Made by a program: the position numbers and the translations under genes
In this document: positions 4,752 through 23,020 of the stretch, piece after piece
How positions within the stretch are numbered: position 1 is the first letter of the stretch
Layout: each line of letters begins with the position of its first letter
The notes under the pieces: model-generated
The model's input: only the letters and a program-made list of their open reading frames with translations
Databases searched by the model: none
What the model was told of the DNA's origin: nothing
Source of the DNA: a virus
DNA: 23,139 bases
Direction: 5' to 3' (one strand)
Virus record (IMG/VR): IMGVR_UViG_3300034198_030459
Span: 1-23,139 of that record

Positions 4752-5414
4752 ATGAATAAAGTGATTAATTTTAATACATCAACAAAAATGTTAGAACAAT
4801 TATTTACCGATAAAGATATTTCAATTCGTGGAGAAGTAGCATCTAATTCCAATACATCAGTAAACCTATTAGAATTGTTATCTACTGATAAAAATGAGTG
4901 GGTTCGTAGTAATGTGGCATCTAATTCCAATACTCCTACAAATTTATTAGAAAAATTATCTACTGATGAACATAGTTGGGTTCGTGATAACGTAGCATCT
5001 AATTTCAATGCACCAGTAAGTTTGTTAGAAAAATTATCTACTGATAGAAGTAAAAATGTTAGACGTAATGTAGCATCTAATCCCAATACGCTAGTAAACT
5101 TGTTAGAACAATTATCTAATGATGAAAATGATTGGGTTCGCTGTAATGTGGCACGTAATCCCAATACACTAGCAATTATATTAGAAAAATTATCTACCGA
5201 TGACAATGATTCAGTTCGTAGTAATGTAGCATCTAATTCTATTACGCCAATAAATTTGTTAGAAAAATTAGCGAATGATAAATATATTTTGGTTCGTGCA
5301 GAAGTAGCACGTAATCCCAATACACCAGCAATTACATTAAAAAAATTATCTAATGATTCAGAAGAATACGTCCGTCTATGTGCAACAAACAATCTGTGTC
5401 AACAAAACAAATAG
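4752..5414 (+). CDS. Leucine-rich-variant (LRV) repeat protein
   Basis: The 220-residue protein consists almost entirely of eight tandem 26-residue repeats from residue 9 to 216. The consensus is T-P-x-N-L-L-E-K-L-S-T-D-x-x-x-x-V-R-x-N-V-A-S-N-P-N. This pattern (LLxxLSxD..., VRxxVAxNPN) is typical of the LRV family, an all-helical solenoid used for protein-protein contact and common in cyanobacteria. No catalytic domain is fused to it. The gene lies on the plus strand within a minus-strand late block, has its own promoter candidates, and ends three bases from the terL stop, so it looks like an independently expressed accessory gene. A 221-residue open frame on the opposite strand is the mirror of the repeats and is not a gene. 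The partner is unknown. Confidence 0.8.
   Translation: MNKVINFNTSTKMLEQLFTDKDISIRGEVASNSNTSVNLLELLSTDKNEWVRSNVASNSNTPTNLLEKLSTDEHSWVRDNVASNFNAPVSLLEKLSTDRSKNVRRNVASNPNTLVNLLEQLSNDENDWVRCNVARNPNTLAIILEKLSTDDNDSVRSNVASNSITPINLLEKLANDKYILVRAEVARNPNTPAITLKKLSNDSEEYVRLCATNNLCQQNK
4776..5399 (+). repeat. Eight degenerate 78-bp tandem repeats inside the LRV gene
   Basis: Each 78-base unit encodes one 26-residue LRV repeat. Recurrent words such as GTAGCATCTAAT, CCCAATAC and GAAAAATTATCTAC recur at that period. Divergence is greater at variable codons than at the conserved leucine, valine-arginine and asparagine positions, so the repeats are old or selected rather than freshly duplicated. Confidence 0.75.
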
Positions 5415-10736: not shown

Positions 10737-13700
10737 ATGAACATAACCATTAGAGACATAGTTAAAAAATTGCCAATATTGGATGGAAGGTTAATGCCAA
10801 ATATGGCAGGAACTAAAGAACCTCACAGAATTAACGGAAAAGTAGTTCAATATAAAATTGATGATTTTTTGTTAAATTATCCAAATCCTTATGCTGTAGC
10901 TATAAAAACAGGAAATGGGTTACTAGCAATTGATGTTGATGGAAAAGAGCAATTAAAAAAAGCACAAGAGTTATTTGGCGAAGATCCTTTTGGGAAAACT
11001 ATTAAAACAACATCTGGAAAAGAAGACAGATTTGTAGCATGGTATAAATACGATCCTCAAATTAAGCTATGCGGTTGTGATATTGATGGGTTGGAGTTTA
11101 AAATCAATTCCAATCAGACTATTTTTGGAATGCATAAAGATAATTTGCAATATCATTTTGTAGAAGGATATGGTCTTGATGATGTCGAATTAGCAGAAGT
11201 TCCAGAAAATATTTTAAATTTTTTAAAAAAGAAAGTATACGAGAAAAATCAATATAAACAATCTATAAATACAAATAAACCTAAAATTACAAATCCAGAA
11301 ATTGAGGTAGATCTTGAAAGAATACTTTCAGTAAAAAATAAAGAACGTTTAAAATCTATTGTTGAAAATCGTAATGTTAATCTTCATGCTTTTGGTTTAG
11401 ATGCTTTAGGTTGCGAATATTGGATAAATCAAAGAGGTTATAAATTAATTTCTAAAACTGCTTATGATTTGTTTAAACAAGCCAATTTAAATTGTTCAAA
11501 AGGCCCACTTGATGATATTGAATTAAAAAATATATGGGATAGTATTTTAAAAAGCAATCCCAGACCATCTATAGCTGAATACATATTAGAAGAAATTGTA
11601 AAAAATCCACCAAGACAAAAATCCACATATACATATTTAAAACCAGTAAATCATAAAGAAGAAAATTCTGAAAATAATCTTAAAGTTTCTGAAGACAAAG
11701 AAATTGAGGATGATGAGCAAGAAAAATTACCAGAAGTTCCTCAATTTATAAATAACAAAAATAATAGAGTTATTGAGCACAATGGCAGATTTGGTCATTG
11801 GATAATGAAAAATGAATTAAAAACAGAACGAGATCCAGAAACTGGAAAAGAAATTCAATCTGCTAGTAAACAAATTAAAGTTCCTCATTTTGAATATTTA
11901 ACAGATTATAAATTTGATATTGTCAATATTTTAGATGATTTGTCTGGCGAGGGTAATTCGGCATTGGAGCTGAAAATGAAACAAGTTAGTAAAAAAAGAA
12001 CTGTAAATGTAATTTTAATGGATAAGGATAAACATGATACTAGAACTTTATCTAGAGCATTAAGTAAAGGATATGGTGGGGTTTTATTTGATAAATTAAA
12101 TCATCATCAGTATAACGATATAATTGATACAAAAATTCAACAATTTATTGAACAAGGAGGTAAACCTAAAACATTAGCAACTTGTCGAGGTAAACAAGAT
12201 AATGGATATTGGATTTTTGAAAACATTCAATTTGATTCTAATGGAGATGTTTGTACAGAAGAGAAAAGTGGATTAGTATTTAATCCAATACAGATTGATG
12301 GAGATGCCATACCATCTCCGAATATTTTAAAACCTGATAGTGAAATTTTAGGAAAAGTAATGAAACTTACTGCTGAATATGCTGGTTCAGCAATTTATCC
12401 TACATTATTGTTAATAGCAGCTCAAATAATGGGAGTTCATTATAAAGAGAGAGTAGAAAGTTCTACAACTTTTCCTTTAGTAAATGCTATTGGGATGTTG
12501 CATACGGGAAAAACAACTGCTGCTTTAATTGGTCAAGCTTTAGTTGGTTTATATAAAATTACTAATGCTCAAATTTCTACAATTAGTGAATCTGCTTTAT
12601 TTGAAAGAGCTAAAACACTTTCTGGAATTTCAATATGGGTAGACGATCCTCAAAAAGATGAAAATTTTTCTAAAAATCTTTTAGGGTTAACAAATAATGG
12701 TGCTAGGGTAGTTCGAGGTAATAGCCAAAAACCATGTAGTGGAACTATTATTACTTCTAATCATGCTTTAGGTGAAGACAATTCAGCAGTAGTTTCTAGA
12801 ACTATATATATACCATTTAAAAAAGTGAAAAATATTAATATAGAAGCTTTTGATGAACTTCAAAAAATATTACATTTAGCTTCTGGAGCATTTAATACAT
12901 TTATTAAATGGGGTTATGACAAAGAATCGATATATAAATTAAAAAAAGAATTTCAAGAATATTTGCCAACTGCTGTAGATAGAGTAGCGTTAAACATAGC
13001 AAATTTAGCTTACTATGCTTTTAAATTAGCTCCTTATGCTGGCATAAGTGAACAAGATTTAAAAAATTACATTATTGAAACTATTTGTAGAGATGCAGAT
13101 CAATTACAAACTGAAGATAATTTTTTAATAGATTTTCTTAAAAAATTAGAAACCTTAAGAGAGAAAAATTTAATAGGCCCTTGGAATTATAAATTTATAA
13201 GTAAAAGAGGAATTGGTGAAAATGTTTTAGCAATTAAATTAGATTCTGTATGGTCAGTTTTTAGTAAAGAATATGAGAAAAAGACATCTTATAATTTAAC
13301 AATAATTAAAAGTTTGTTGGATATTAATTTTACTAAAAAAAATGCAAAACATATTTTTGTTGACGATATAAAAAGTTATCAATTATGGGTACAAAAAATG
13401 ATTTCAGAACAAACTTATTCGATTAAAACTGAAATAGGAACTTCATTTTGTAAAAGATTTAATTGTATTGAAATTTATGTCGATAGAATTCCCGAAATGG
13501 TTGGATTTTATGATAATGATATAAGTTTAGAAGATCATGAAAATAATAATAGAAAAGTTGTATCGATTATAAAAAATAAATCTGATGAGGATATTTTATT
13601 TGAAAAACTTAACAAAATTGATAATGAAAAAGATTTTATTAATTTAACAAAAAATTATGATGATTTTGGCAATAATCCATTAGTAGTTAAAGTATTTAAC

Positions 13701-13775
13701 AAATTAGATAATAAAAAAGTACAATTTTTTGCTCAAACATTAATAAAAATTGGAAATACAACATGGAAAGCTTAG
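10737..13775 (+). CDS. Primase-polymerase / ATPase fusion replication protein
   Basis: A 1012-residue replication protein. The N-terminal ~180 residues look like a prim-pol domain: AGTKEP near 24-29 corresponds to the usual P-x-K-x-P segment, GLLAIDVDG (61-69) holds the metal-binding D66-x-D68 pair, and GLEFKINSNQTIFG (118-131) fits the third motif. The second motif reads T-T-S-G-K-E-D-R-F and lacks the histidine usually seen there. A PriCT-like helical segment follows (about 215-280), then a linker rich in Glu/Lys. The C-terminal half has a P-loop, GMLHTGKTT (586-594), and Walker B SIWVDDPQ (D636, D637), as in DUF927-type helicase-like ATPases. It probably primes and unwinds phage DNA. The next gene starts inside its last 13 bases. 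Confidence 0.8.
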   Translation: MNITIRDIVKKLPILDGRLMPNMAGTKEPHRINGKVVQYKIDDFLLNYPNPYAVAIKTGNGLLAIDVDGKEQLKKAQELFGEDPFGKTIKTTSGKEDRFVAWYKYDPQIKLCGCDIDGLEFKINSNQTIFGMHKDNLQYHFVEGYGLDDVELAEVPENILNFLKKKVYEKNQYKQSINTNKPKITNPEIEVDLERILSVKNKERLKSIVENRNVNLHAFGLDALGCEYWINQRGYKLISKTAYDLFKQANLNCSKGPLDDIELKNIWDSILKSNPRPSIAEYILEEIVKNPPRQKSTYTYLKPVNHKEENSENNLKVSEDKEIEDDEQEKLPEVPQFINNKNNRVIEHNGRFGHWIMKNELKTERDPETGKEIQSASKQIKVPHFEYLTDYKFDIVNILDDLSGEGNSALELKMKQVSKKRTVNVILMDKDKHDTRTLSRALSKGYGGVLFDKLNHHQYNDIIDTKIQQFIEQGGKPKTLATCRGKQDNGYWIFENIQFDSNGDVCTEEKSGLVFNPIQIDGDAIPSPNILKPDSEILGKVMKLTAEYAGSAIYPTLLLIAAQIMGVHYKERVESSTTFPLVNAIGMLHTGKTTAALIGQALVGLYKITNAQISTISESALFERAKTLSGISIWVDDPQKDENFSKNLLGLTNNGARVVRGNSQKPCSGTIITSNHALGEDNSAVVSRTIYIPFKKVKNINIEAFDELQKILHLASGAFNTFIKWGYDKESIYKLKKEFQEYLPTAVDRVALNIANLAYYAFKLAPYAGISEQDLKNYIIETICRDADQLQTEDNFLIDFLKKLETLREKNLIGPWNYKFISKRGIGENVLAIKLDSVWSVFSKEYEKKTSYNLTIIKSLLDINFTKKNAKHIFVDDIKSYQLWVQKMISEQTYSIKTEIGTSFCKRFNCIEIYVDRIPEMVGFYDNDISLEDHENNNRKVVSIIKNKSDEDILFEKLNKIDNEKDFINLTKNYDDFGNNPLVVKVFNKLDNKKVQFFAQTLIKIGNTTWKA

Positions 13776-13999
13776 AACCTAGTTTAGAAGAATTATTAAA
13801 ATTAGCATCACCTCATCAAATTGAACAATATAAATATTTACAAAAAACTTATGGAGAAACAATAGATAAAGATGTAGGTTGGAGATATTTGTATATTTCA
13901 GTATTAAAAAAATTACCCAATGATAAATATGAATTTGACTTTAACGCAAACAATCCCTTCCTTATCAAAGAAATTTTCTGGCTCTGTTACCAAAAATAA
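13763..13999 (+). CDS. Small hypothetical protein, paralogue of the next gene's N-terminal region
   Basis: A 78-residue protein. Residues about 10-50 (L-L-K-L-A-S-P-H-Q-I-E-Q-Y-K-Y-L-Q, then Y-G-E-T, then W-R-Y-L-Y-I-S-V-L-K) align with the N-terminal third of the following protein (L-I-N-K-A-T-Y-G-Q-K-K-E-A-L-R-L-Q-N-L-Y-G, R-Y-L-H-I-A-V). The first 13 bases overlap the primase gene. Its last 80 bases overlap the next gene in a different frame, and that part of the protein (F-L-I-K-E-I-F-W) is likely unconstrained tail. A run of seven As at 13906-13912 precedes the overlap, so a frameshift or a sequencing indel could link the two genes. Confidence 0.5.
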   Translation: MESLEPSLEELLKLASPHQIEQYKYLQKTYGETIDKDVGWRYLYISVLKKLPNDKYEFDFNANNPFLIKEIFWLCYQK

Positions 14000-14654
14000 A
14001 AAAACTAAATTAAAACCTTTTTTTGATTTAATAAATAAAGCAACATATGGTCAAAAAAAAGAAGCTCTTCGTTTACAAAATTTATACGGAAGGGATTATG
14101 CTCATAGATATTTGCATATAGCCGTAACAAGATCTGCTATTCAAAATTACAAAAATACAAATAAAAATTGTAATTTTGAAATATGGGATCAAAATGAATT
14201 GTTAAATGAACTTCCTAGTTATTGGGAAGATTTAGTTAATGAATACATGAAAAATAAAGGAGCTATTATATTAAATAATTTGTTTGAATATTTATTTCCT
14301 CAAGCAAATGAAATTTTTATGCCTTTAGAAAATGAAAAAGAAATTATTCCAATAATAGATCCCTATGACGAATTAAGAACTAAACAATTTTTGCAAAATA
14401 AATTAATTGAATGGAATTGGATACCAAATAAAAAACAAAAAGTTTTTTTTCATCCTTCTTTAAAATATGAAACAATTGTATTAATAGGAATTAATTTAAT
14501 AGAATTTGATTTAAAAACTTTTGTTAAAAGTTTAGATTTTGAAATAAACATAGAGCTTTTTAAATACATCGCTAATGTGCTTGACAAAGCTGGATTTGAA
14601 TCTATTAAATATGAAAAAAACAATTATATTTACCGTAAACCATTATTTATATGA
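13920..14654 (+). CDS. Hypothetical protein between primase and nrdA
   Basis: A 244-residue protein of unknown function. Its N-terminal region (about 35-75, KATYGQKKEALRLQNLYG... RYLHIAV) resembles the preceding 78-residue protein. The rest contains alternating acidic and aromatic segments and a C-terminal helix-strand region (LFKYIANVLDKAGF, then NYIYRKPLFI), with no motif I recognise. The stop overlaps the nrdA start as ATGA. A second in-frame ATG lies nine bases after the first. Location between replication and nucleotide genes suggests an early function. Confidence 0.6.
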   Translation: MINMNLTLTQTIPSLSKKFSGSVTKNKKTKLKPFFDLINKATYGQKKEALRLQNLYGRDYAHRYLHIAVTRSAIQNYKNTNKNCNFEIWDQNELLNELPSYWEDLVNEYMKNKGAIILNNLFEYLFPQANEIFMPLENEKEIIPIIDPYDELRTKQFLQNKLIEWNWIPNKKQKVFFHPSLKYETIVLIGINLIEFDLKTFVKSLDFEINIELFKYIANVLDKAGFESIKYEKNNYIYRKPLFI

Positions 14655-16840
14655 CAATCGTAACTCATCGTAACGGAAAAACTTCACCAGTTGACATAAA
14701 CAAAATTCGTATTGTAATCAATTGGGCTTGTAGAAATTTAAACAATATCAATCCTATAGAATTAGAATCAGTATTTTCTACAAGATTAAAAGAAAATATA
14801 ACAACTAGAGAGATACAACAAAATTTAATTAATCATGCTTTAGAGTTATGTACTCCTCAAGAATCAAATTGGAGATATGTAGCTGGAAGATTGCATATTT
14901 GGTCATTATGGAAAGATATTAAAGCAATTAGAGAAACAGATTTTTTTGAAGACGTATATGTAGATAGTTTTCATGAAATAAAAATTAAAATTGCAAAAGG
15001 TATATATAAAGAAAATTTAATTGATTCATATACATTAGAAGAAATTCATATTGCTTGCGGTTGGATAAATCAAGAATTAGATTGTGATTATGATTATGCT
15101 GGAGCCAAATTATTAACAGATAGATATTTACTTAAAAATGAATTGCCTCAAGAAGCATATTTAGTTAGTGCTCTTATTTTGGCTAAAGATTATTCTGAAG
15201 AACATCGATTGCAATTTGCTAAACAAATTTATGAAGCAGTAGCTAAACGTAAAATTTCTTTAGCTACGCCAATGTTGGCAAATCTTAGAAAACCTAATAG
15301 TTCAGTTACTAGTTGTTTTATTTTGGATACTGATGATTCTATTGAATCTATTACTCATTCTTGGAAACAAGCCGCTAAAATTTCGGCACAAGGCGGAGGA
15401 ATAGGTATTAGGTTATCTAAAATTAGAGCTAAAGGTTCTGAAGTAAACGGCAGAGAAAATTCAAGTGGCGGAGTAATACCTTGGGTCAAAATTCTTAATG
15501 ATATAGCATTAGCCGTAAATCAAGGTGGTAAAAGAGCTGGTGCTATTACAATTGCATTAGATTCGTGGCATTTAGATTTACCAGAATTTTTAGATATACA
15601 AACCGAACATGGAGATCAAAGATTAAAAGCATTTGATATTTTTCCTCAAATAGTCTGTAGTGATTTATTTATGAAAAGAGTAATAAATGATCAAATATGG
15701 ACACTTTTTGATCCTCATGAAGTAAAACAACAATTTAATTATGATTTAGCAAATTTATGGGGAACCAAATTTGAATCTGTTTATACCGAACTTGAAGCTA
15801 ATTTGGGTAGCAAAATTAAATTATATAAATCTGTAAAAGCTAAAGATTTATTTAAAACAATCATGAGAATGCAAATTGAAACAGGGTTACCTTATATTGC
15901 ATTTAAAGATACTATAAATGAAGCTAATCCAAATAAAAATTTAGGCATTATACCATCAGTAAATCTTTGCACAGAAAGTTTTTCAATTGTATCTATAGAT
16001 GAAGCTCATTGTTGTGATTTAGTATCTCTTAATTTAGCCAACATAACAGATGAAGAATTAGGATCAATTACCGAATTAGCAGTAGAAATATTAGATAATT
16101 CGCTAGATATTGCATCCCCACCAATTAAAGAAGCTAAATTACATCATGATAAATATCGAGTAATAGGAGTTGGAACTATGGGTTTAGCTGATTGGTTAGC
16201 TAAAAGAAAATTAACTTATCGTTCTAACCAAAATGAAATTAATGAATTGTTTGAAAATATTTCATATTATGCTTTTAAAGCATCAATAAATTTAGCAAAA
16301 ACAAGAGGCCCATTTTTGGCTTATAAAAAAAGCGAATTTGCCAAAGAATTAATTAATTGTAAATCTTTTGAATGGTATGAAAACAATGCTAAATATTTTA
16401 GAAGATGGAAAAGATTATTTAATGAATTGAAAGAATATGGCATTAGAAACAGCCAAATTTTAGCTATAGCTCCAAATACATCATCTTCCTTAATACAAGG
16501 CTGTAGTGCTTCAATTTTGCCCATATACAACAGATTTTTTTATGACAAAGCAAAAGGTAATGTGCCAATAGCTCCTCCATTTATTGAAGATTATTATTGG
16601 TTTTATGAAGAAAATAAAAATTTAGATCAACAAATAATTGTAAATACTGTAGCTAACATTCAAAAATGGATAGATACTGGTATTTCTATGGAATTGTTAT
16701 TTAATTTAAATTCTGGAATTACTGGTAAAGATATTTATAAAATTTTAATATCTGCATGGCAACAAAAAGTAAAAGCAATTTATTATATAAGAACAGTTCA
16801 AAAAGATAATTTTGAGGAGTGTACAGCTTGTGCAAACTAA
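14651..16840 (+). CDS. nrdA: Class I ribonucleotide reductase, large (alpha) subunit
   Basis: The 729-residue enzyme reduces ribonucleoside diphosphates to deoxy forms. An ATP-cone covers the first ~95 residues (VTHRNGKTSPVDINKIR), so overall activity control by ATP/dATP is likely retained. Active-site residues are visible: C222 in TSCF, N438-C440-E442 in NLCTES with the thiyl cysteine at 440, and C455 in CCDLVSLNL pairing with C222. The radical-transfer tyrosines are Y711-Y712 in IYYIRT. The C-terminal tail ECTACAN gives the shuttle pair C724/C727. Length matches class Ia enzymes. It is the start of an nrdA-to-nrdB segment with four small genes in between. Confidence 0.95.
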   Translation: MTIVTHRNGKTSPVDINKIRIVINWACRNLNNINPIELESVFSTRLKENITTREIQQNLINHALELCTPQESNWRYVAGRLHIWSLWKDIKAIRETDFFEDVYVDSFHEIKIKIAKGIYKENLIDSYTLEEIHIACGWINQELDCDYDYAGAKLLTDRYLLKNELPQEAYLVSALILAKDYSEEHRLQFAKQIYEAVAKRKISLATPMLANLRKPNSSVTSCFILDTDDSIESITHSWKQAAKISAQGGGIGIRLSKIRAKGSEVNGRENSSGGVIPWVKILNDIALAVNQGGKRAGAITIALDSWHLDLPEFLDIQTEHGDQRLKAFDIFPQIVCSDLFMKRVINDQIWTLFDPHEVKQQFNYDLANLWGTKFESVYTELEANLGSKIKLYKSVKAKDLFKTIMRMQIETGLPYIAFKDTINEANPNKNLGIIPSVNLCTESFSIVSIDEAHCCDLVSLNLANITDEELGSITELAVEILDNSLDIASPPIKEAKLHHDKYRVIGVGTMGLADWLAKRKLTYRSNQNEINELFENISYYAFKASINLAKTRGPFLAYKKSEFAKELINCKSFEWYENNAKYFRRWKRLFNELKEYGIRNSQILAIAPNTSSSLIQGCSASILPIYNRFFYDKAKGNVPIAPPFIEDYYWFYEENKNLDQQIIVNTVANIQKWIDTGISMELLFNLNSGITGKDIYKILISAWQQKVKAIYYIRTVQKDNFEECTACAN

Positions 16841-16841
16841 T

Positions 16842-17156
16842 ATGTTGGAAACAATTTTGTTTAATATGTCAAATTTAATTTGTTTTATTTTGGGATTTGC
16901 TGTCAAATTTTATTTGGATTTACAATTTAATAAATTTTCCAATCAAGTGCAACAAATTTTGACATCAGATCAATATGTCGGAGAAAATCAAGAAGAAATT
17001 GAAGAGATTAGATCTGATATTATCGTTTTAGGTGAAAAAATTTTAGAAAACGCACAATCTATGGAACCAGAAGGAGATCCATTTAATTATAAATTACCAG
17101 CTAGTGTAATTAATAACTTAGATGAATTGTATACTGAATATCACGAATATTTTTAA
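16842..17156 (+). CDS. Membrane-anchored coiled-coil hypothetical protein
   Basis: A 104-residue protein beginning at the ATG one base after the nrdA stop. A TTG at 16812 inside nrdA could open the frame earlier but is less likely. Residues about 5-26 (ILFNMSNLICFILGFAVKFYLDL) form one membrane span or signal anchor, then a glutamate-rich helix (NQEEIEEIRSDIIVLGEKILENA) likely forms a coiled coil. Topology with the bulk in the cytoplasm is probable. Function is unknown; tight linkage to nrdA suggests co-expression only. Confidence 0.6.
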   Translation: MLETILFNMSNLICFILGFAVKFYLDLQFNKFSNQVQQILTSDQYVGENQEEIEEIRSDIIVLGEKILENAQSMEPEGDPFNYKLPASVINNLDELYTEYHEYF

Positions 17157-17167
17157 AGGATAAAATT

Positions 17168-17407
17168 ATGATTTTTGATGCAGTAAAAATGGATGATTTG
17201 CATATAATTAAAAATTATATAAAATTAGACATAGAAAGAAGTAAAAGTAAAATATTTTTATTATCAGCTCAATTAGTAGAAACTACCGATAAAGGAGAAT
17301 ATGATACTCGTGAAAATATTATTGCCAATATAAAATGGGAACATGAACATATAAACAAATTATTGATTGATTTGGATGATTTAAGAGGCAAGGAAAAATT
17401 ATGCTAA
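17168..17407 (+). CDS. Small helical hypothetical protein
   Basis: A 79-residue protein preceded by a good ribosome site (AAGGA, seven bases before the ATG). It reads as two long amphipathic helices (DDLHIIKNYIKLDIERSKSK and NIKWEHEHINKLLIDLDDL), a helical-hairpin or coiled-coil layout. No known motif. Its last seven bases overlap the next gene, which has its own AGGA. Confidence 0.6.
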   Translation: MIFDAVKMDDLHIIKNYIKLDIERSKSKIFLLSAQLVETTDKGEYDTRENIIANIKWEHEHINKLLIDLDDLRGKEKLC

Positions 17408-17703
17408 TTGAATTAATTCAAGAAATGATAGATACAGCTTTTACAGAAGATCCTAAAATTTTTGATGATAAACCTAATTTAGATAGATATTTTGCTGTTC
17501 AATCTTTTATTGTAATGAAAATTAATCAATTAATTGGTGAACTAGATACTGATAAATTAACAATCAATGAAAAAAAATTATTTGATTATATTGATAACAA
17601 ATTAAATTGTTATCCTCTTGAACTTTACGAACCAACATATTATTTAGTTTCAGAAAATCAACTATTAAATTTAAAAGAATTAATAAAAAATGTTTCCACC
17701 TAA
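17401..17703 (+). CDS. Small hypothetical protein between nrdA and nrdB
   Basis: A 100-residue protein, acidic and mostly helical, with an AGGA ribosome site six bases before the ATG and a seven-base overlap with the preceding gene. No membrane span, zinc site or known motif is visible. The final part (ENQLLNLKELIKNV) is a leucine-rich helix. Its 3' end overlaps the NblA-like gene by 14 bases, so the two are likely co-translated. Confidence 0.6.
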   Translation: MLIELIQEMIDTAFTEDPKIFDDKPNLDRYFAVQSFIVMKINQLIGELDTDKLTINEKKLFDYIDNKLNCYPLELYEPTYYLVSENQLLNLKELIKNVST

Positions 17704-18022
17704 ATTTGTTCCGCTTGATTTAGATCAAGAATTTGAATTGTTTAAATTTAAACAAAAAGCAACATCAATGTTACATATTGATTTAGTAAAATCAATTTTG
17801 ATAAATGTTACTCAAATGCACAATTTTAGAAATTTAATAGAAAATAAAAATAAAATTAGTATGGAACAACAGCTTCACATAAAAGGAATTGAATTGTATT
17901 ATAAAACATATCCTAAAGATATTTTAATTGGTTGTGCCTATTATTATATGAAACAAAAAATGTTATTTCAAAATATGTTAAGTAAACAAAAAACTACAAA
18001 TGAAAACAACAATATTATTTAA
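17690..18022 (+). CDS. Tandem NblA-like protein (phycobilisome degradation family)
   Basis: The 110-residue protein contains two units of equal length that align with each other without gaps: residues 11-50 (L-D-Q-E-F-E-L-F... ending F-R-N-L-I) and 58-97 (M-E-Q-Q-L-H-I-K... ending F-Q-N-M-L). Each has the layout of NblA/Ycf18: a starting L-x-E-Q-E/Q-F/L, a hydrophobic helix, a short turn, then a helix ending in a hydrophobic pair. NblA is normally a ~60-residue two-helix protein that dimerises, binds phycobiliproteins and brings the Clp protease to the antenna. Phage copies are known, for example in Microcystis phage Ma-LMM01. A two-unit form would be a covalent dimer. Similarity is judged by eye, so another helical-hairpin family is possible. 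The gene overlaps nrdB by 23 bases. Confidence 0.5.
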   Translation: MFPPKFVPLDLDQEFELFKFKQKATSMLHIDLVKSILINVTQMHNFRNLIENKNKISMEQQLHIKGIELYYKTYPKDILIGCAYYYMKQKMLFQNMLSKQKTTNENNNII

Positions 18023-19022
18023 TCCAAAAGGTAACGATGTCGAAAAACAAGTATTTAATGGTAATACTACTGGAATGTGCCAACTTAATAATTTGGCTTA
18101 TCCTTGGGCTAGAAATTTATGGGATCAAATGCGATCTCAATTTTGGCAACATCAAAAAATTGATCTCACTAATGATGTAGTAGATTATAACAATTTAACT
18201 AATGAAGAACGAAATGCTTATAATAAAACGCTTGGGTTCTTGGTATTTCTTGATTCGATACAAATCAACAATTTACCTTATTTAAAAGGGCCTATAACAG
18301 CTCCAGAGATTGGATTATGTATATCTGAACAAACTGCTCAAGAAGCTTTGCATAGCGCTTCATATCAATACATAATCGAAACAGTAATACCTAAAGAACA
18401 ACGAAATAAAATGTATGAGCTTTGGAGGGAAGACAAATTATTACAACAAAGATGTTGTTTAATATCTGGAATTTACCAAGAATATATTAATAATCAAACG
18501 TTAGAAAATTATTTAAAAGCGTTAATAGCCGATTACATATTAGAAGGATTATATTTTTATGCTGGTTTCAATTTTTTTTATACCCTTGCTTCTCGTTCAC
18601 TTATGTCTGGAACTGCTGATATTATTAAATTAATTCACAGAGACGAATTAAGTCACGTTCGTATTTATCAAGAATTAGTAAATGAAGCATATTTACAATA
18701 TCCTGATAATGAAGTTTGGAATCAAGTTCATAATATGTTTGAAGAAGCTATTATTAACGAAATAACGTGGAATAATAGCATTTGCCAAAATGCTATATTA
18801 GGAATAACAAAAGAATCTACAAAAGAATATGTATATTATTTGGCAAACGTTAGATTAAAAGGCATTAAATTTAATAAATTTAAAGAAGATTATAAAAATC
18901 CTTATCAACATCTTGAAAGATTTAGTGATTTATCTAATCAAGCTACAACCAAAACTAATTTTTTTGAATCTACGGTTACTTCATATCAAACTTCTAGTAC
19001 CATAAAAGAATGGGATTTTTAA
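18000..19022 (+). CDS. nrdB: Class I ribonucleotide reductase, small (beta) subunit
   Basis: The 340-residue ferritin-like subunit holds the metal cofactor and radical for NrdA. Metal ligands are visible: D85 in LDSIQ, E115 and H118 in EALHSASY, E182 in LEGLYFYAGF, and E216 and H219 in RDELSHV. The radical tyrosine Y122 is present, so a tyrosyl radical of class Ia/Ib type is expected rather than the Phe-bearing class Ic. The C-terminal tail IKEWDF should dock on NrdA. The start lies inside the NblA-like gene, and the following gene begins directly after the stop. Confidence 0.95.
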   Translation: MKTTILFNPKGNDVEKQVFNGNTTGMCQLNNLAYPWARNLWDQMRSQFWQHQKIDLTNDVVDYNNLTNEERNAYNKTLGFLVFLDSIQINNLPYLKGPITAPEIGLCISEQTAQEALHSASYQYIIETVIPKEQRNKMYELWREDKLLQQRCCLISGIYQEYINNQTLENYLKALIADYILEGLYFYAGFNFFYTLASRSLMSGTADIIKLIHRDELSHVRIYQELVNEAYLQYPDNEVWNQVHNMFEEAIINEITWNNSICQNAILGITKESTKEYVYYLANVRLKGIKFNKFKEDYKNPYQHLERFSDLSNQATTKTNFFESTVTSYQTSSTIKEWDF

Positions 19023-19298
19023 ATGAAAGATATAGTTAATATAGATTTTAATTACATTGAAAAAGATTTTAAATGGACAAATTATCACGACATTTATGAC
19101 ATTTTAGAATTTTTATTTGTCACTCTTGAAAAAGTTCAACAAGAATATATGATTTATTCAGACGAAATAGCAGAAGAAAATGGTTATAATCGCAATATTA
19201 ATGAAGAAATTTATAATCTGACTTTATCTAAAGGCAGAAAAGATTTGTTAAATAGTTTAATAAACGAACTAGAAAAAATTATTGATAAAGAAATATAA
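19023..19298 (+). CDS. Small acidic hypothetical protein, paralogue of the 19395 gene
   Basis: A 91-residue protein beginning directly after the nrdB stop. It is helical and acidic. The part from D-I-L-E-F-L-F-V-T-L-E-K to the end aligns with the 84-residue protein at 19395: both have a helix of L-x-F-L-x-x-L, a stretch ending D-E/V-A, and a shared T/S-K-G-x-K-D-L-[LI]-x-x-L-I-N motif near the C-terminus. Function is unknown. The pair may form homo- or heterodimers. Confidence 0.6.
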   Translation: MKDIVNIDFNYIEKDFKWTNYHDIYDILEFLFVTLEKVQQEYMIYSDEIAEENGYNRNINEEIYNLTLSKGRKDLLNSLINELEKIIDKEI

Positions 19299-19302
19299 AA
19301 TT

Positions 19303-19395
19303 ATGACAATTGGCTGGATATTATTTTGGATGTTATTTATAATTTTAAATTCAATAATTGTTAAAATTTTGGATAATTTAATGAGGAACTATTAA
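19303..19395 (+). CDS. 30-residue membrane peptide
   Basis: A short frame starting four bases after the previous stop and ending in a TAATG that overlaps the next gene's start. Its 30 residues are mostly hydrophobic (I-G-W-I-L-F-W-M-L-F-I-I-L-N-S-I-I-V), then a short basic tail (K-I-L-D-N-L-M-R-N-Y), consistent with a single membrane span. Overlap with the next start and exact fit between two paralogous genes support translation. No known family; a span this short could be a lysis or regulator peptide. Confidence 0.45.
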   Translation: MTIGWILFWMLFIILNSIIVKILDNLMRNY

Positions 19396-19649
19396 TGAAA
19401 TCTTTTAGATTAGACAAACTTATTAACAATGAATATATTTTAATTAATTCTGATACATTATTAGCATTTTTATTAAAATTAAATGATTTAATTGAAGAAG
19501 AATTTAATGAAATATCTAATGATGTAGCCGATCATGCGATATCACAAAACGATTCTGATTTTAATACGTTGCTTAATAATTTAATAAAAACTAAAGGTGC
19601 TAAAGATTTAATATTTAAACTTATTAATCAAATTAACGATAGATTTTAA
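19395..19649 (+). CDS. Small acidic hypothetical protein, paralogue of the 19023 gene
   Basis: An 84-residue protein with GAGGA before its ATG. It resembles the protein at 19023 (L-L-A-F-L-L-K-L-N-D-L near residues 23-33, and T-K-G-A-K-D-L-I-F-K-L-I-N at 66-78). The two are separated only by a 30-residue membrane peptide, so this looks like an old local duplication. Function unknown. A terminator-like hairpin follows at 19711. Confidence 0.6.
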   Translation: MKSFRLDKLINNEYILINSDTLLAFLLKLNDLIEEEFNEISNDVADHAISQNDSDFNTLLNNLIKTKGAKDLIFKLINQINDRF

Positions 19650-19710
19650 TATTTGACCTGAGAAAGTCATTAAAAGTCTCGCCCTGTTCTTTTTTGTTGT
19701 TTGATTTTTG

Positions 19711-19736
19711 GCGTAGCAAGACTACGCTTTTGTTTT
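19711..19736 (+). terminator. Intrinsic terminator inside the long plus-strand run
   Basis: GCGTAG (19711-19716), loop CAAGA, CTACGC (19722-19727), followed by TTTTGTTTT (19728-19736). A six-base GC-rich stem with a T tract is the cleanest intrinsic terminator in the window. It ends one base before the ATG of the cysteine-rich gene, so expression of later genes would need read-through or their own promoter. Confidence 0.7.
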
Positions 19737-19958
19737 ATGAAACAAATATGTCCCGTATGCAAGGTATGTATTAATAATGGTATTGTAGAAACATCATTAG
19801 GTTTACCAATGACTAAAGAAATGTTAAAATCAAAGGTTTGTTTTTATGCAAAACGTGAAGGATGTATTAACGATTATATTGGAAAAGTTAATCCTTTTTT
19901 TGAATCCGTCCAAAAAGAATTTGAAGGAAGAACTTTCTCAGACTTTGATAGATCTTGA
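19737..19958 (+). CDS. Small cysteine-rich protein, possible zinc-binding
   Basis: A 73-residue protein with C-P-V-C-K-V-C (C5, C8, C11) and later C35 and C43, suggesting a zinc knuckle or ribbon. The frame remains open 12 codons upstream, but that part runs through the terminator hairpin, so I start at the ATG of M-K-Q-I-C. No Shine-Dalgarno sequence is present because the T tract abuts the start. The second half overlaps the following frame for 113 bases. Function unknown; moderate to low certainty. Confidence 0.45.
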   Translation: MKQICPVCKVCINNGIVETSLGLPMTKEMLKSKVCFYAKREGCINDYIGKVNPFFESVQKEFEGRTFSDFDRS

Positions 19959-20247
19959 AAAAATTTATGAACGAACTGAAAATAAAATTAACGAATTAGA
20001 AAAACTTGAAAAAAATAATAAATTATCTTTTCAGGTAACTAATAATTATCAAAATCACAAATTTGAATTTGATGTATTATTAGAAAATGATAGCGATAAT
20101 GTATTATTAATAACCAAACGATTTGATGATTATGATACTGGAAGATATTTAATGAATTTAAATACTTTTATCATGACACGCAAAGCAGCCAAAACATTAT
20201 CAACTTATCTTTTTCAATGTTCACATATTGAGCCTGATAAATTATGA
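19846..20247 (+). CDS. Hypothetical protein with coiled-coil N-terminus
   Basis: Up to 133 residues. The first 25 overlap the cysteine-rich gene in another frame and may not be translated, since TTG codons at 19900 or 19921 are alternative starts. The region L-S-Q-T-L-I-D-L-E-K-I-Y-E-R-T-E-N-K-I is a coiled coil, followed by an all-beta-looking part (KFEFDVLLEN, NVLLITKRF) and a C-terminal helix. No recognised family. The stop overlaps the next small membrane gene (ATGA). Confidence 0.5.
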   Translation: MQNVKDVLTIILEKLILFLNPSKKNLKEELSQTLIDLEKIYERTENKINELEKLEKNNKLSFQVTNNYQNHKFEFDVLLENDSDNVLLITKRFDDYDTGRYLMNLNTFIMTRKAAKTLSTYLFQCSHIEPDKL

Positions 20248-20393
20248 ATGATTACATCAAAACAGTATTAGCAACGATGACTGGAGTTTTAGCAGCATTT
20301 TATGTTCATGCTATATTTAACAAATTAATGCCTCCAGCATATCCCGATAATATAGTAAAAATCCCTAATCTTTATTATCAACAAACTAAATGA
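20244..20393 (+). CDS. 49-residue membrane protein
   Basis: This short gene overlaps the previous stop (ATGA) and the start of the kinase gene (ATGA). Residues about 5-25 (I-K-T-V-L-A-T-M-T-G-V-L-A-A-F-Y-V-H-A-I-F) form a likely membrane span, followed by a proline-containing polar tail (N-K-L-M-P-P-A-Y-P-D-N). It could be an anchor peptide with a periplasmic or cytoplasmic tail. Coupling at both ends is good evidence of translation. Function unknown. Confidence 0.55.
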   Translation: MNDYIKTVLATMTGVLAAFYVHAIFNKLMPPAYPDNIVKIPNLYYQQTK

Positions 20394-20923
20394 CTAGTAT
20401 TTTAATTGAAGGTATTGACGGTAGCGGTAAAACAACTTTAGCTAAAACATTAGCAGAAGAATTAAATTTTTATTATTTAAAATTTCCTACAGAATTTTAT
20501 TATAAAAATGCGACTAAATCAGCTTTAGCTAATGCTCATTTGCATATGGTTGATTTTTATAATAATGCTGAATTTATTTTAATTAATGATGTAGTGTTAG
20601 ATCGTTATTTACCTTCTCATTTAGCTTATGAAATTTTAACTAATGGAGGCCCAGATACTAAAAATTGGTTAGATATTTCTGTTAATCTTCCAATACCAAA
20701 TTATACATTTTATTTAAACATAGATGTAAAAAATGTTTGGAAACGATTAGAAACTAGAGAAACTTTAACGTTTGAAGAATCTATAACAAATTTATATTTG
20801 GTACAACAATCATATAAAAATGTTATTAAAGATTTAGAAAACAAACAATGGAATATTTGTAATTTAAATGGAAATAAATCAATTGAAAAAAATTTGTATG
20901 AGATTTTAACAATATTAAAATAG
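20390..20923 (+). CDS. Deoxynucleoside monophosphate kinase, thymidylate-kinase-like
   Basis: The 177-residue P-loop kinase has Walker A G-I-D-G-S-G-K-T-T (8-16) at the N-terminus, as in thymidylate kinases (EGIDGSGKTT). L-D-R-Y-L-P-S-H (D71-R72-Y73) is the DR[YS] motif after a hydrophobic strand, and the lid segment near 118-128 has R-L-E-T-R-E. Length is slightly short of bacterial Tmk (about 205). It probably turns dTMP into dTDP, fitting with ThyX and NrdAB, but a broader dNMP or deoxynucleoside specificity is possible. It starts in the stop of the membrane peptide. Confidence 0.8.
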   Translation: MTSILIEGIDGSGKTTLAKTLAEELNFYYLKFPTEFYYKNATKSALANAHLHMVDFYNNAEFILINDVVLDRYLPSHLAYEILTNGGPDTKNWLDISVNLPIPNYTFYLNIDVKNVWKRLETRETLTFEESITNLYLVQQSYKNVIKDLENKQWNICNLNGNKSIEKNLYEILTILK

Positions 20924-21378
20924 TGAATACTGATACATTATATTGTAGATGGAAACATCGAGAAACTAGGATTCCTATTGTTATAGGAAAATTAACTTTT
21001 GATGGAGAATTTTACAAATATTGTTATACTCAAGGTGTAAGAAATGCTTTTACTCAAGATCCTCTTTTTGATTTAATTAAAGAATTTCCACAGACTGATA
21101 ATTTATATATAAAAAATACAATGTTTCATTTTTTTTTATATAGAATTAGACAGCGTAAAGGTAAAGGATATTACAAATATTTAAAACAATTAGGTTTAAA
21201 ACCTGATGAAAATAGTCACATGAATCTTTTAAGAGCATCTAAAGGTGTTCCTTGGAATGCTTTTCAAACTGGTTTCAATAGTAATTTTGATATCGTTTAT
21301 GTTGAACCTGAAGAAGCAGAATTAGATTCTAAATATTTGCCATATTCTAATGATTTACGTAGCGTCTTATTTCAGTGA
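20923..21378 (+). CDS. HIRAN-associated-like N-terminal protein
   Basis: A 151-residue protein opening with GTG in a TAGTG overlap with the kinase stop. The first third (L-Y-C-R-W-K-H-R-E-T-R-I-P-I-V-I-G-K-L-T-F-D-G, then F-Y-K-Y-C-Y-T-Q-G) resembles the N-terminal region of cyanobacterial proteins of the pattern L-A-W-Q-D...W-F-P-I-G-R-L...Y-x-F-x-Y-T-x-G, which usually carry a HIRAN domain after it. Here the protein ends where the HIRAN half would start, so it appears reduced. A link to HipA N-terminal-like folds is also possible. Its 3' end overlaps the next gene by 29 bases. Confidence 0.4.
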   Translation: MNTDTLYCRWKHRETRIPIVIGKLTFDGEFYKYCYTQGVRNAFTQDPLFDLIKEFPQTDNLYIKNTMFHFFLYRIRQRKGKGYYKYLKQLGLKPDENSHMNLLRASKGVPWNAFQTGFNSNFDIVYVEPEEAELDSKYLPYSNDLRSVLFQ

Positions 21379-21718
21379 TCCTTGTTATTTTCACGGAAAA
21401 TTAGTGCCTATATCTTTTCCAGCTCATATTGGGTTTAATTATAAATTAGAACCAGAACTTAAAATTTTTAGTCCATCTAATTTTTTGCGTAATTATAAAT
21501 TTTATAAAATTCCTCAAAAAGATTATGCAAAACATTATAAAAAAATATTAAAAATGGATTTAATAAAAATTTGGTTAAATAGTATTAAACCTGATGACGA
21601 TATTACATTAATGATATGGGAAAAAATAGATGAATTTTCACATGGTGATTTAGTTCTTAAGTTTGTCAAAAAATATAAACCAAATTGTTATGGAGGAAGA
21701 AACGTATGTTTAAATTAA
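21350..21718 (+). CDS. DUF488-like protein with altered active motif
   Basis: The 122-residue protein begins M-I-Y-V-A-S-Y-F-S, the usual start of DUF488 relatives, with a K-L-V-P-I-S strand after it and, late in the sequence, L-M-I-W-E-K-I-D-E-F-S-H-G-D-L-V near residues 85-100. In the family this part normally reads L-x-C-x-E-x...F-C-H-R. Here both cysteines and the arginine are replaced (I, S and G), while the Glu and His remain. G-G-R at the end also fits. Function of the family is unsettled. The start overlaps the preceding gene. Confidence 0.5.
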   Translation: MIYVASYFSDPCYFHGKLVPISFPAHIGFNYKLEPELKIFSPSNFLRNYKFYKIPQKDYAKHYKKILKMDLIKIWLNSIKPDDDITLMIWEKIDEFSHGDLVLKFVKKYKPNCYGGRNVCLN

Positions 21719-22206
21719 CATCAATACAGCAATTTTTAGAATTAACTGAAGGCGATTGGTATAGTCAAAGACGTTATTATTATTTAACAAATAATAAAGT
21801 TTGTGAATTTACTTCTAATTTGTCAGTAACATTTTTACCTTGGTTTTCTAAAGAATTAGATAAATTATCAATTGCTCATAAAGCAATAAACTTAAAATTT
21901 ACTTGCGGAGCAATTCTTGAATGGGAAACTTTTAATATTGATAATAATTTAATATCTAATGGCAAAATTATTATGGGAGTAAATCTTGATAGTATTTATC
22001 GAGATAAAGGTTATGGAACTGATAAACCTGTAGTTAGCAGATATATTCTTAAAGATAATTCTTTAATTTTAAAAACTAATTATGATAATAACGATTACAC
22101 GGAAACCATAAAAATGTTATCTCCAATTTATCGAACAAGACAAACTGAAATGAAAACAAAAGATAAATTTTTAATGATTGGTCAATATTTAGAACAAAAG
22201 CTTTAA
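21706..22206 (+). CDS. CpcS/CpeS-like phycobilin lyase
   Basis: The 166-residue protein matches the S-type bilin lyase fold (a lipocalin-like barrel): E-G-D-W-Y-S-Q-R-R (15-23) at the N-terminus, V-N-L-D-S-I-Y-R-D-K-G-Y-G-T-D-K-P-V-V (92-110) in the middle, and Y-R-T-R-Q-T (142-147) followed by I-G-Q-Y-L-E near the C-terminus. Such lyases attach phycobilins to cysteines of phycobiliproteins. Known cyanophage bilin genes are pebS, pcyA, ho1 and cpeT. The frame opens seven codons earlier at 21685, but GGAGG (21692-21696) stands before the ATG at 21706, which I take as start. It overlaps the DUF488-like gene by 13 bases and ends the long plus-strand run. Confidence 0.75.
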   Translation: MFKLTSIQQFLELTEGDWYSQRRYYYLTNNKVCEFTSNLSVTFLPWFSKELDKLSIAHKAINLKFTCGAILEWETFNIDNNLISNGKIIMGVNLDSIYRDKGYGTDKPVVSRYILKDNSLILKTNYDNNDYTETIKMLSPIYRTRQTEMKTKDKFLMIGQYLEQKL

Positions 22207-22223
22207 CATATTTTATAAAACAT

Positions 22224-22244
22224 ATTTAATTAGGGAAATTAAAT
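22224..22244. repeat. AT-only inverted repeat with AGGGA loop
   Basis: ATTTAATT (22224-22231), AGGGA, AATTAAAT (22237-22244) lies between the convergent lyase and thyX genes. The loop is part of a sixth TTAGGGAAA copy (22230-22238), otherwise clustered near int. The stem has no GC, so it is a weak terminator at best. Confidence 0.35.
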
Positions 22245-22282
22245 TTAAAAACTTTATCAGGTAAGGCTTTTGGTATTGTTGC

Positions 22283-23020
22283 CTAAAAACTCAAACTAGA
22301 TTTTGACCAATACTTGTTACGATAATATTCAGCAAGTTCTGGCATCCATTTGGTAAATTCAATAAAAATATATTCACAAAGTGTTTGAATTTCTATTTGA
22401 GCATCTTTGGCAGTACGCATATTAAAAAAATGTAATAATGACCTTGCATTGCAACTAAAAGTATAATTTTGTCTAATATTTTGACTAAGGTATTGACGAG
22501 CCATTTCTGGAGGCATACCTTGAGCAAGGTTGTTGACGTATGATACAGCCGATTGACGAGTATTCCAAATATCGTTTTGTCTCATATCGTCGTTATATTC
22601 AAAATAATGACCAACTCTATCTTTATATTTACCAATTGGTCTAAAATAAAAAACCTCTTCAATTTCTCGTAAATTTTCCACAACTTCTATTACTCTTTGT
22701 CCTGTATAGCGCTGAGATTGTACATCAAAACTAGCTAACCGATGGGTTCTATGCTGAACCATAACATCATGAGGAAATCCTCCAATGGCAATTACTATAT
22801 GAGCATGTTCTAATGGCCCTGCATGAGGTCGATGATTATGTAATAAATTTTTTTCAATTAAAGACCAAGCTTTTTTTTCATCGGGCCAGATTTCGTTATC
22901 CCATTCGTCACCAATAAAATTTTCACTATAATCACCGTGAGCTGGTATCCAAATTGTTGAATATGGATTTAAAGTAGCAGATATGGTTTTTGTTTTGAAA
23001 TATAAGTCAGATATAATCAT
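22283..23020 (-). CDS. thyX: Flavin-dependent thymidylate synthase (ThyX)
   Basis: The 245-residue enzyme makes dTMP from dUMP using FAD and methylene-tetrahydrofolate. The signature is at residues 90-105, H-R-T-H-R-L-A-S-F-D-V-Q-S-Q-R-Y. It matches the ThyX pattern R-H-R-x7-S except that the first arginine is threonine (T92-H93-R94-x7-S102). S-F-D-V-Q-S-Q-R-Y-T-G is the FAD/dUMP-binding segment. The C-terminal half (A-R-Q-Y-L-S, F-S-C-N-A-R-S-L-L-H-F-F-N-M-R) carries the usual N-x-R-x-L-x-x-F-x-x-x-R binding residues. It is divergent from dut across only 23 bases, an arrangement that would supply dUMP and then dTMP. Confidence 0.92.
   Translation of the reverse strand: MIISDLYFKTKTISATLNPYSTIWIPAHGDYSENFIGDEWDNEIWPDEKKAWSLIEKNLLHNHRPHAGPLEHAHIVIAIGGFPHDVMVQHRTHRLASFDVQSQRYTGQRVIEVVENLREIEEVFYFRPIGKYKDRVGHYFEYNDDMRQNDIWNTRQSAVSYVNNLAQGMPPEMARQYLSQNIRQNYTFSCNARSLLHFFNMRTAKDAQIEIQTLCEYIFIEFTKWMPELAEYYRNKYWSKSSLSF

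Follow-up and report, generated by a model that had tools for sequence, protein, structure and literature searches.

Here we present a viral protein of 110 residues in which two units derived, by profile comparison, from NblA, the phycobilisome proteolysis adaptor of cyanobacteria and phages, follow each other in one chain. The protein is encoded in a 23,139-base virus record (IMGVR_UViG_3300034198_030459; this whole stretch is hereafter referred to as the window), between the genes for the large and small subunits of ribonucleotide reductase (nrdA and nrdB; Table 1). An ortholog with the same tandem architecture occupies the same place in a second virus. In both proteins each of the two units is homologous to NblA and is predicted to fold as a helical hairpin. 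We put at roughly 60% the probability that the chain is a pseudo-dimer predicted to act as a Clp adaptor, one that would feed a component of the host antenna to the protease during infection.

The nrdA–nrdB locus

In addition to nrdA and nrdB, the window encodes thymidylate kinase, thyX, a DNA polymerase sliding clamp, a large terminase, an integrase and repressor-like HTH proteins. Bases 12000–23000 share DNA with no phage in the phage collection (megablast). Window nrdB matches that of the Microcystis phages Ma-LMM01 and MaMV at 39% (tblastn), and the nrdB of the second virus (L001; see below), which is 76% identical to window nrdB, shares 54.6% identity with the nrdB of a Nostoc plasmid. 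The host of the window virus is therefore likely to be a cyanobacterium, as judged from these nrdB matches.

Table 1 Features of the nrdA–nrdB segment of the window (feature, position, strand, basis)
nrdA, ribonucleotide reductase large subunit	14651..16840	+	Pfam Ribonuc_red_lgC 2.6e-135, ATP-cone
Small ORF, hydrophobic N-terminus, between nrdA and the double-NblA gene	16812..17156	+	L001 counterpart, blastp
Small ORF overlapping the start of the double-NblA gene	17401..17703	+	ORF list
Gene for the tandem NblA-like protein, 110 aa	17690..18022	+	ORF and translation; syntenic ortholog in L001
NblA-like unit 1, residues 7–52	17708..17845	+	hhalign and gapless register
NblA-like unit 2, residues 55–99	17852..17986	+	hhalign; HMMER domain in L001
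nrdB, ribonucleotide reductase small subunit	18000..19022	+	tblastn: top phage matches annotated nrdB

The double-NblA gene overlaps both the 3′ end of the small ORF before it and the start of nrdB, sharing 23 bases with the latter. Neither of the two small ORFs in Table 1 has a Pfam match. The first of them is 38% identical over 102 aa to its L001 counterpart (blastp), and no L001 counterpart was found for the second or for ORF 17168–17407 (blastp, ORF comparison).

Further features lie elsewhere in the window. Two adjacent ORFs in different frames (13763–13999 and 13920–14654) overlap by 80 bases and contain similar motifs. Their counterparts in L001 (4231–4527 and 4385–5143), also in different frames, overlap by 143 bases and contain similar motifs as well (QLEQYEYLQKTY...YRYLHVAILRK and QQQEASRLQQ...HRYLQVSVTRK). 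This pair (window 13763–14654; L001 4231–5143) looks like a duplicated domain split by a frame change. A second overlapping pair, kept in both viruses (window 19701–19958 and 19846–20247, 113 bases shared; L001 9946–10248 and 10106–10504), encodes a short CPVCxVC protein and a protein of ~133 residues of unassigned function. Window ORF 4752–5414 is built from repeated units of ~24 residues (NPNTxxxLLEKLSTDxxxxVRxNVASN) that resemble leucine-rich variant or HEAT-like repeats.

An ortholog in a second virus

A scan of viral_contigs with nrdB identified the viral contig IMGVR_UViG_3300025390_000524 (L001), which encodes, between nrdA and nrdB (L001:7679–8023), a 114-residue ortholog with 36% identity to the window protein (blastp E 2e-23). 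On the strength of this syntenic ortholog, sequence comparison indicates that the double-NblA gene is conserved as a protein-coding unit. The family found comprises these two members. Direct search with the window protein returned no homolog in viral_contigs and matches at chance level only among phages, and the L001 protein had no match among phages and plasmids. Scans of viral_contigs with the protein alignment, nrdB, an nrdA fragment and the CxxC neighbour gave the L001 contig as the sole near relative. A search of genome_contigs with the two-sequence alignment or the nrdA fragment gave no match, and hence a cyanobacterial prophage copy was not found. Three marginal matches of the L001 protein were taken as chance: phrog_2862 (E 0.098), which was sought in 12 records and was absent, and Pfam Bud3_N and OB_RNR_1st (E 0.05–0.08).

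Two units in a common register

The original prediction had aligned residues 11–50 of the window protein with residues 58–97. In the window protein alone, the best 40-residue ungapped self-match lies at offset 47 with a shuffle p of 0.26, and 5 of 46 residues are identical between the units (5–7 of 46 within either protein). Once L001 is added, the best 40-column self-match reproduces the proposed register exactly (column shuffle p = 0.005; p = 0.048 with the hydrophobic pattern also kept), and offset 47 gives the sole positive score among offsets 38–55 (over 41 columns). The best local score of half against half, taken on its own, is non-significant (p 0.14). The repeat is thus weak in a single sequence; the evidence is much stronger from NblA profiles, which both halves fit independently and in one shared gapless register.

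Single-sequence searches with Pfam NblA (PF04485; curated cut-off of 25 bits) score the window protein at 8.4 bits and the L001 protein at 11 bits, below the cut-off. NblA is the only Pfam match of the window protein (E 4.1), in its first half (residues 10–29); in the L001 protein the match (E 0.62) falls in the second half (residues 57–79). Neither match counts alone, yet they lie in opposite halves and share a register. NCBIfam gave no match. Across the 2,220 ORFs of all loci, a local profile of seven NblAs ranks the true NblAs first, followed directly by the L001 protein (E 0.0023) and then by the window protein (E 0.0034), with the next ORF at E 1.3. A wider profile that includes viral NblAs (HMMER) gives the L001 protein E 2e-4 with two in-register domains (profile 7–45 and 2–44; 8.5 bits for unit 1 and 11.9 bits for unit 2) and the window protein E 0.12, likewise with two domains.

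We also scored every gapless register against an alignment of 20 NblAs. For the window protein, registers 6 and 53 score best, and for the L001 protein, registers 8 and 55; the two are 47 apart in each protein, and the third best is far lower. None of 100,000 shuffles equalled both registers; holding fixed the hydrophobic pattern, in which the hairpins themselves are encoded, raised this to 42–43 of 100,000. Ungapped, window unit 1 is identical to the viral NblA of contig L023 at 15 of 48 positions.

Each half was also compared separately, with alignments made from the ortholog pair. With hhalign, the first halves match the 20 NblAs at Prob 88.6 (E 2.7e-6, 46 columns) and the second halves at Prob 70.4 (E 3.9e-5, 45 columns) or, with L001 first, Prob 63.5 (E 6.8e-5), whereas 13 other ortholog pairs from neighbouring genes of the same two viruses, used as controls, reach Prob 2.0 at most. 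Each unit aligns to 43–46 columns of the NblA core. Homology to NblA, as seen at the level of sequence, is thus carried by the ortholog pair and not by the window protein by itself.

The second unit of the window protein is the weakest piece. Its HMMER domain score is 3.5 bits, and 938 of 10,000 pattern-preserving shuffles equal its score with the wider profile; both results would suit a protein in which unit 1 alone descends from NblA and unit 2 is an unrelated helical extension. We regard such an origin as highly improbable: L001 unit 2 outscores unit 1 and begins LTFEQEL, the paired second halves retain their hhalign match, and the predicted helix boundaries recur with a period of 47 (see below).

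Convergence of the whole protein, in which two amphipathic hairpins without NblA descent would perform another job in a nucleotide operon, is also unlikely. The weak single-sequence scores and the low identity between the units of a protein fit this explanation, as does the finding that about 4–5% of pattern-preserving shuffles score as well as the better of the two units in each protein. However, both units keep the same 47-residue register in both viruses, the control pairs stay at the hhalign background, and nblA of Ma-LMM01 lies in the same nrdA–nrdB position. The prediction of two NblA-like units in one chain is supported by the separate profile matches and by the hairpins described below, but not in the sense of plain NblA. 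Because the scores are far below the Pfam cut-off and NCBIfam gives no match, we refer to the units, which profile comparison marks as remote NblA relatives, as NblA-derived.

Predicted fold

AlphaFold2, with the two sequences as input, predicts four helices in the window protein (residues 11–24, 29–50, 58–70 and 76–108; pLDDT 82.6, pTM 0.73) and in the L001 protein (residues 13–28, 31–52, 60–75 and 78–112; pLDDT 90.4, pTM 0.81); the lower-ranked models are much worse, down to 57 and 43. In both orthologs each unit is predicted to form a hairpin in which helix A is short and helix B longer, and the starts of helices 1 and 3, as well as those of helices 2 and 4, are 47 residues apart in both models. 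The two helical hairpins that the original prediction anticipated are thus present in both models. Among the matches listed by Foldseek and VIA for the two models there is no NblA chain. Helical bundles such as 2nsf (VIA/Foldseek, Z 6.8 and 6.6) have scores that are common among helical models and were set aside.

N-terminal motif and C-terminal tail

Of the N-terminal L-x-x-EQ motif of NblA, all four units have the invariant Gln and the Leu/Ile; the Glu is present in both second units and replaced by Asp in window unit 1 and by His in L001 unit 1. The Asn at column 42 is also common to all four units. The C-terminal hydrophobic-x-Lys/Arg tail, by contrast, is kept in none of the four units: column 47 reads K, Q, R and Q, versus L/I/M in 20 of 20 NblAs, and column 49 reads K, T, D and Q, versus K/R in 16 of 20 NblAs, the Lys in window unit 1 being the sole remnant. 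In Anabaena NblA the equivalents of these columns are presumably Leu51 and Lys53, residues that reportedly, in work by Bienert from 2006, matter for phycobilisome binding. For NblA, ClpC binding is reported to involve the conserved N-terminal motif, and phycobiliprotein binding a motif at the C-terminus (PMC4103541; PMC7760959).

Because the tail is missing, it is conceivable, although we think it rather unlikely, that the double NblA keeps ClpC docking and has lost phycobilisome binding. It would then be a ClpC decoy that spares the antenna, or an adaptor retargeted to another host protein, and would block or redirect the host Clp protease during infection with no bleaching. The uneven conservation of the two motifs agrees with this, given the reported division of NblA into an N-terminal ClpC-binding and a C-terminal phycobiliprotein-binding part (PMC4103541). 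In addition, the period of 47 puts the end of unit 1 where the tail would begin. On the other hand, the tail loss is read from a remote alignment, and a shifted binding site could lie in the long last helix, which extends to residue 108 in the model. We know of no NblA-derived ClpC decoy.

A probable adaptor in a single chain

We favour a double NblA-derived Clp adaptor directed at the antenna. Its ancestor would have arisen in a cyanophage by the joining of two NblA units head to tail. NblA dimers form four-helix bundles (PMC7966870), and the single chain, with its two helix-loop-helix hairpins, probably reproduces such a dimer within one molecule. Expression is probably early, together with the surrounding nucleotide-metabolism genes, and the N-terminal EQ-type motifs have probably been retained as docking sites for ClpC, the Clp chaperone of the host. 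Thus equipped, the protein would most likely feed a component of the host phycobilisome to the Clp protease during infection. The antenna is the likeliest cargo, since phage NblAs cause loss of phycobilin when expressed (PMC9602691); its breakdown would release amino acids and lower light stress.

As protease adaptors go, NblA is very small, and there are two competing proposals for the way in which its dimer contacts ClpC and the phycobilisome (PMC4103541). A naturally occurring pseudo-dimer with unlike units in one chain would allow each binding site to be mutated separately, which is impossible in a homodimer. The two proteins would also add to the viral nblA set forms that escape ordinary family searches, in lineages in which nblA is carried together with nucleotide-synthesis genes.

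Comparison with known NblA systems

In Ma-LMM01, nblA (gp005) lies between nrdA and nrdB; it overlaps nrdA and, like nrdA, is transcribed early (PMC4103541). The location between the ribonucleotide reductase subunits is thus not new. In T7-like cyanophages and in contigs L023–L025, an nblA precedes a class II ribonucleotide reductase by no more than about 1.5 kb, and in PaV-LD (L038, 4385–4549) nblA and the thymidylate kinase gene share a few bases. By this analogy, the window gene sits at an expected position for a cyanophage nblA. Prediction of nblA in many cyanopodoviruses is attributed to Nadel et al. 2019 in PMC9602691. The nblA ORFs of S-TIP37 (L007, ~1480–1704) and S-RIP2 (L008, ~1432–1707), both preceding the gene for the class II ribonucleotide reductase, are unannotated in the public records.

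All other NblA proteins compared contain one unit each. We found no earlier report of a double NblA in the literature searched, which covered few subscription papers. As far as we found, therefore, the tandem single-chain form of NblA is new and the nrdA–nrdB placement was already known.

Among known systems, NblA/Ycf18 (PF04485) shares with the window and L001 proteins the core alignment, the Leu/Ile and Gln of L-x-x-EQ, the Asn at column 42 and, in the predicted fold of each unit, a short helix A followed by a longer helix B. It differs in being a single chain of ~60 residues that acts as a dimer, as opposed to 110 residues with two units in the window protein; the window and L001 proteins, for their part, are far below the family cut-offs and do not keep the tail. 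Ma-LMM01 NblA resembles them in gene position and in overlapping a ribonucleotide reductase gene, but it is a single unit of 79 aa with a Pfam match at 1.1e-13, and two further genes separate nblA from nrdB. The NblAs of the T7-like phages S-TIP37, S-RIP2 and S-SRP01 and of L023–L025 are closest in unit-level sequence and are encoded near a class II ribonucleotide reductase, with the T7-like proteins also sharing a PP segment before the EQ motif. These, too, are single units, and most of them score at or above the Pfam cut-off (S-RIP2, at 24.2 bits, is just below). Finally, in Synechocystis PCC 6803 two unlike NblA chains pair as an NblA1/NblA2 heterodimer, which the title of Baier 2014, as cited in PMC7966870, calls essential. 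There the two chains are separate proteins, whereas in the window and L001 proteins the two units share one chain.
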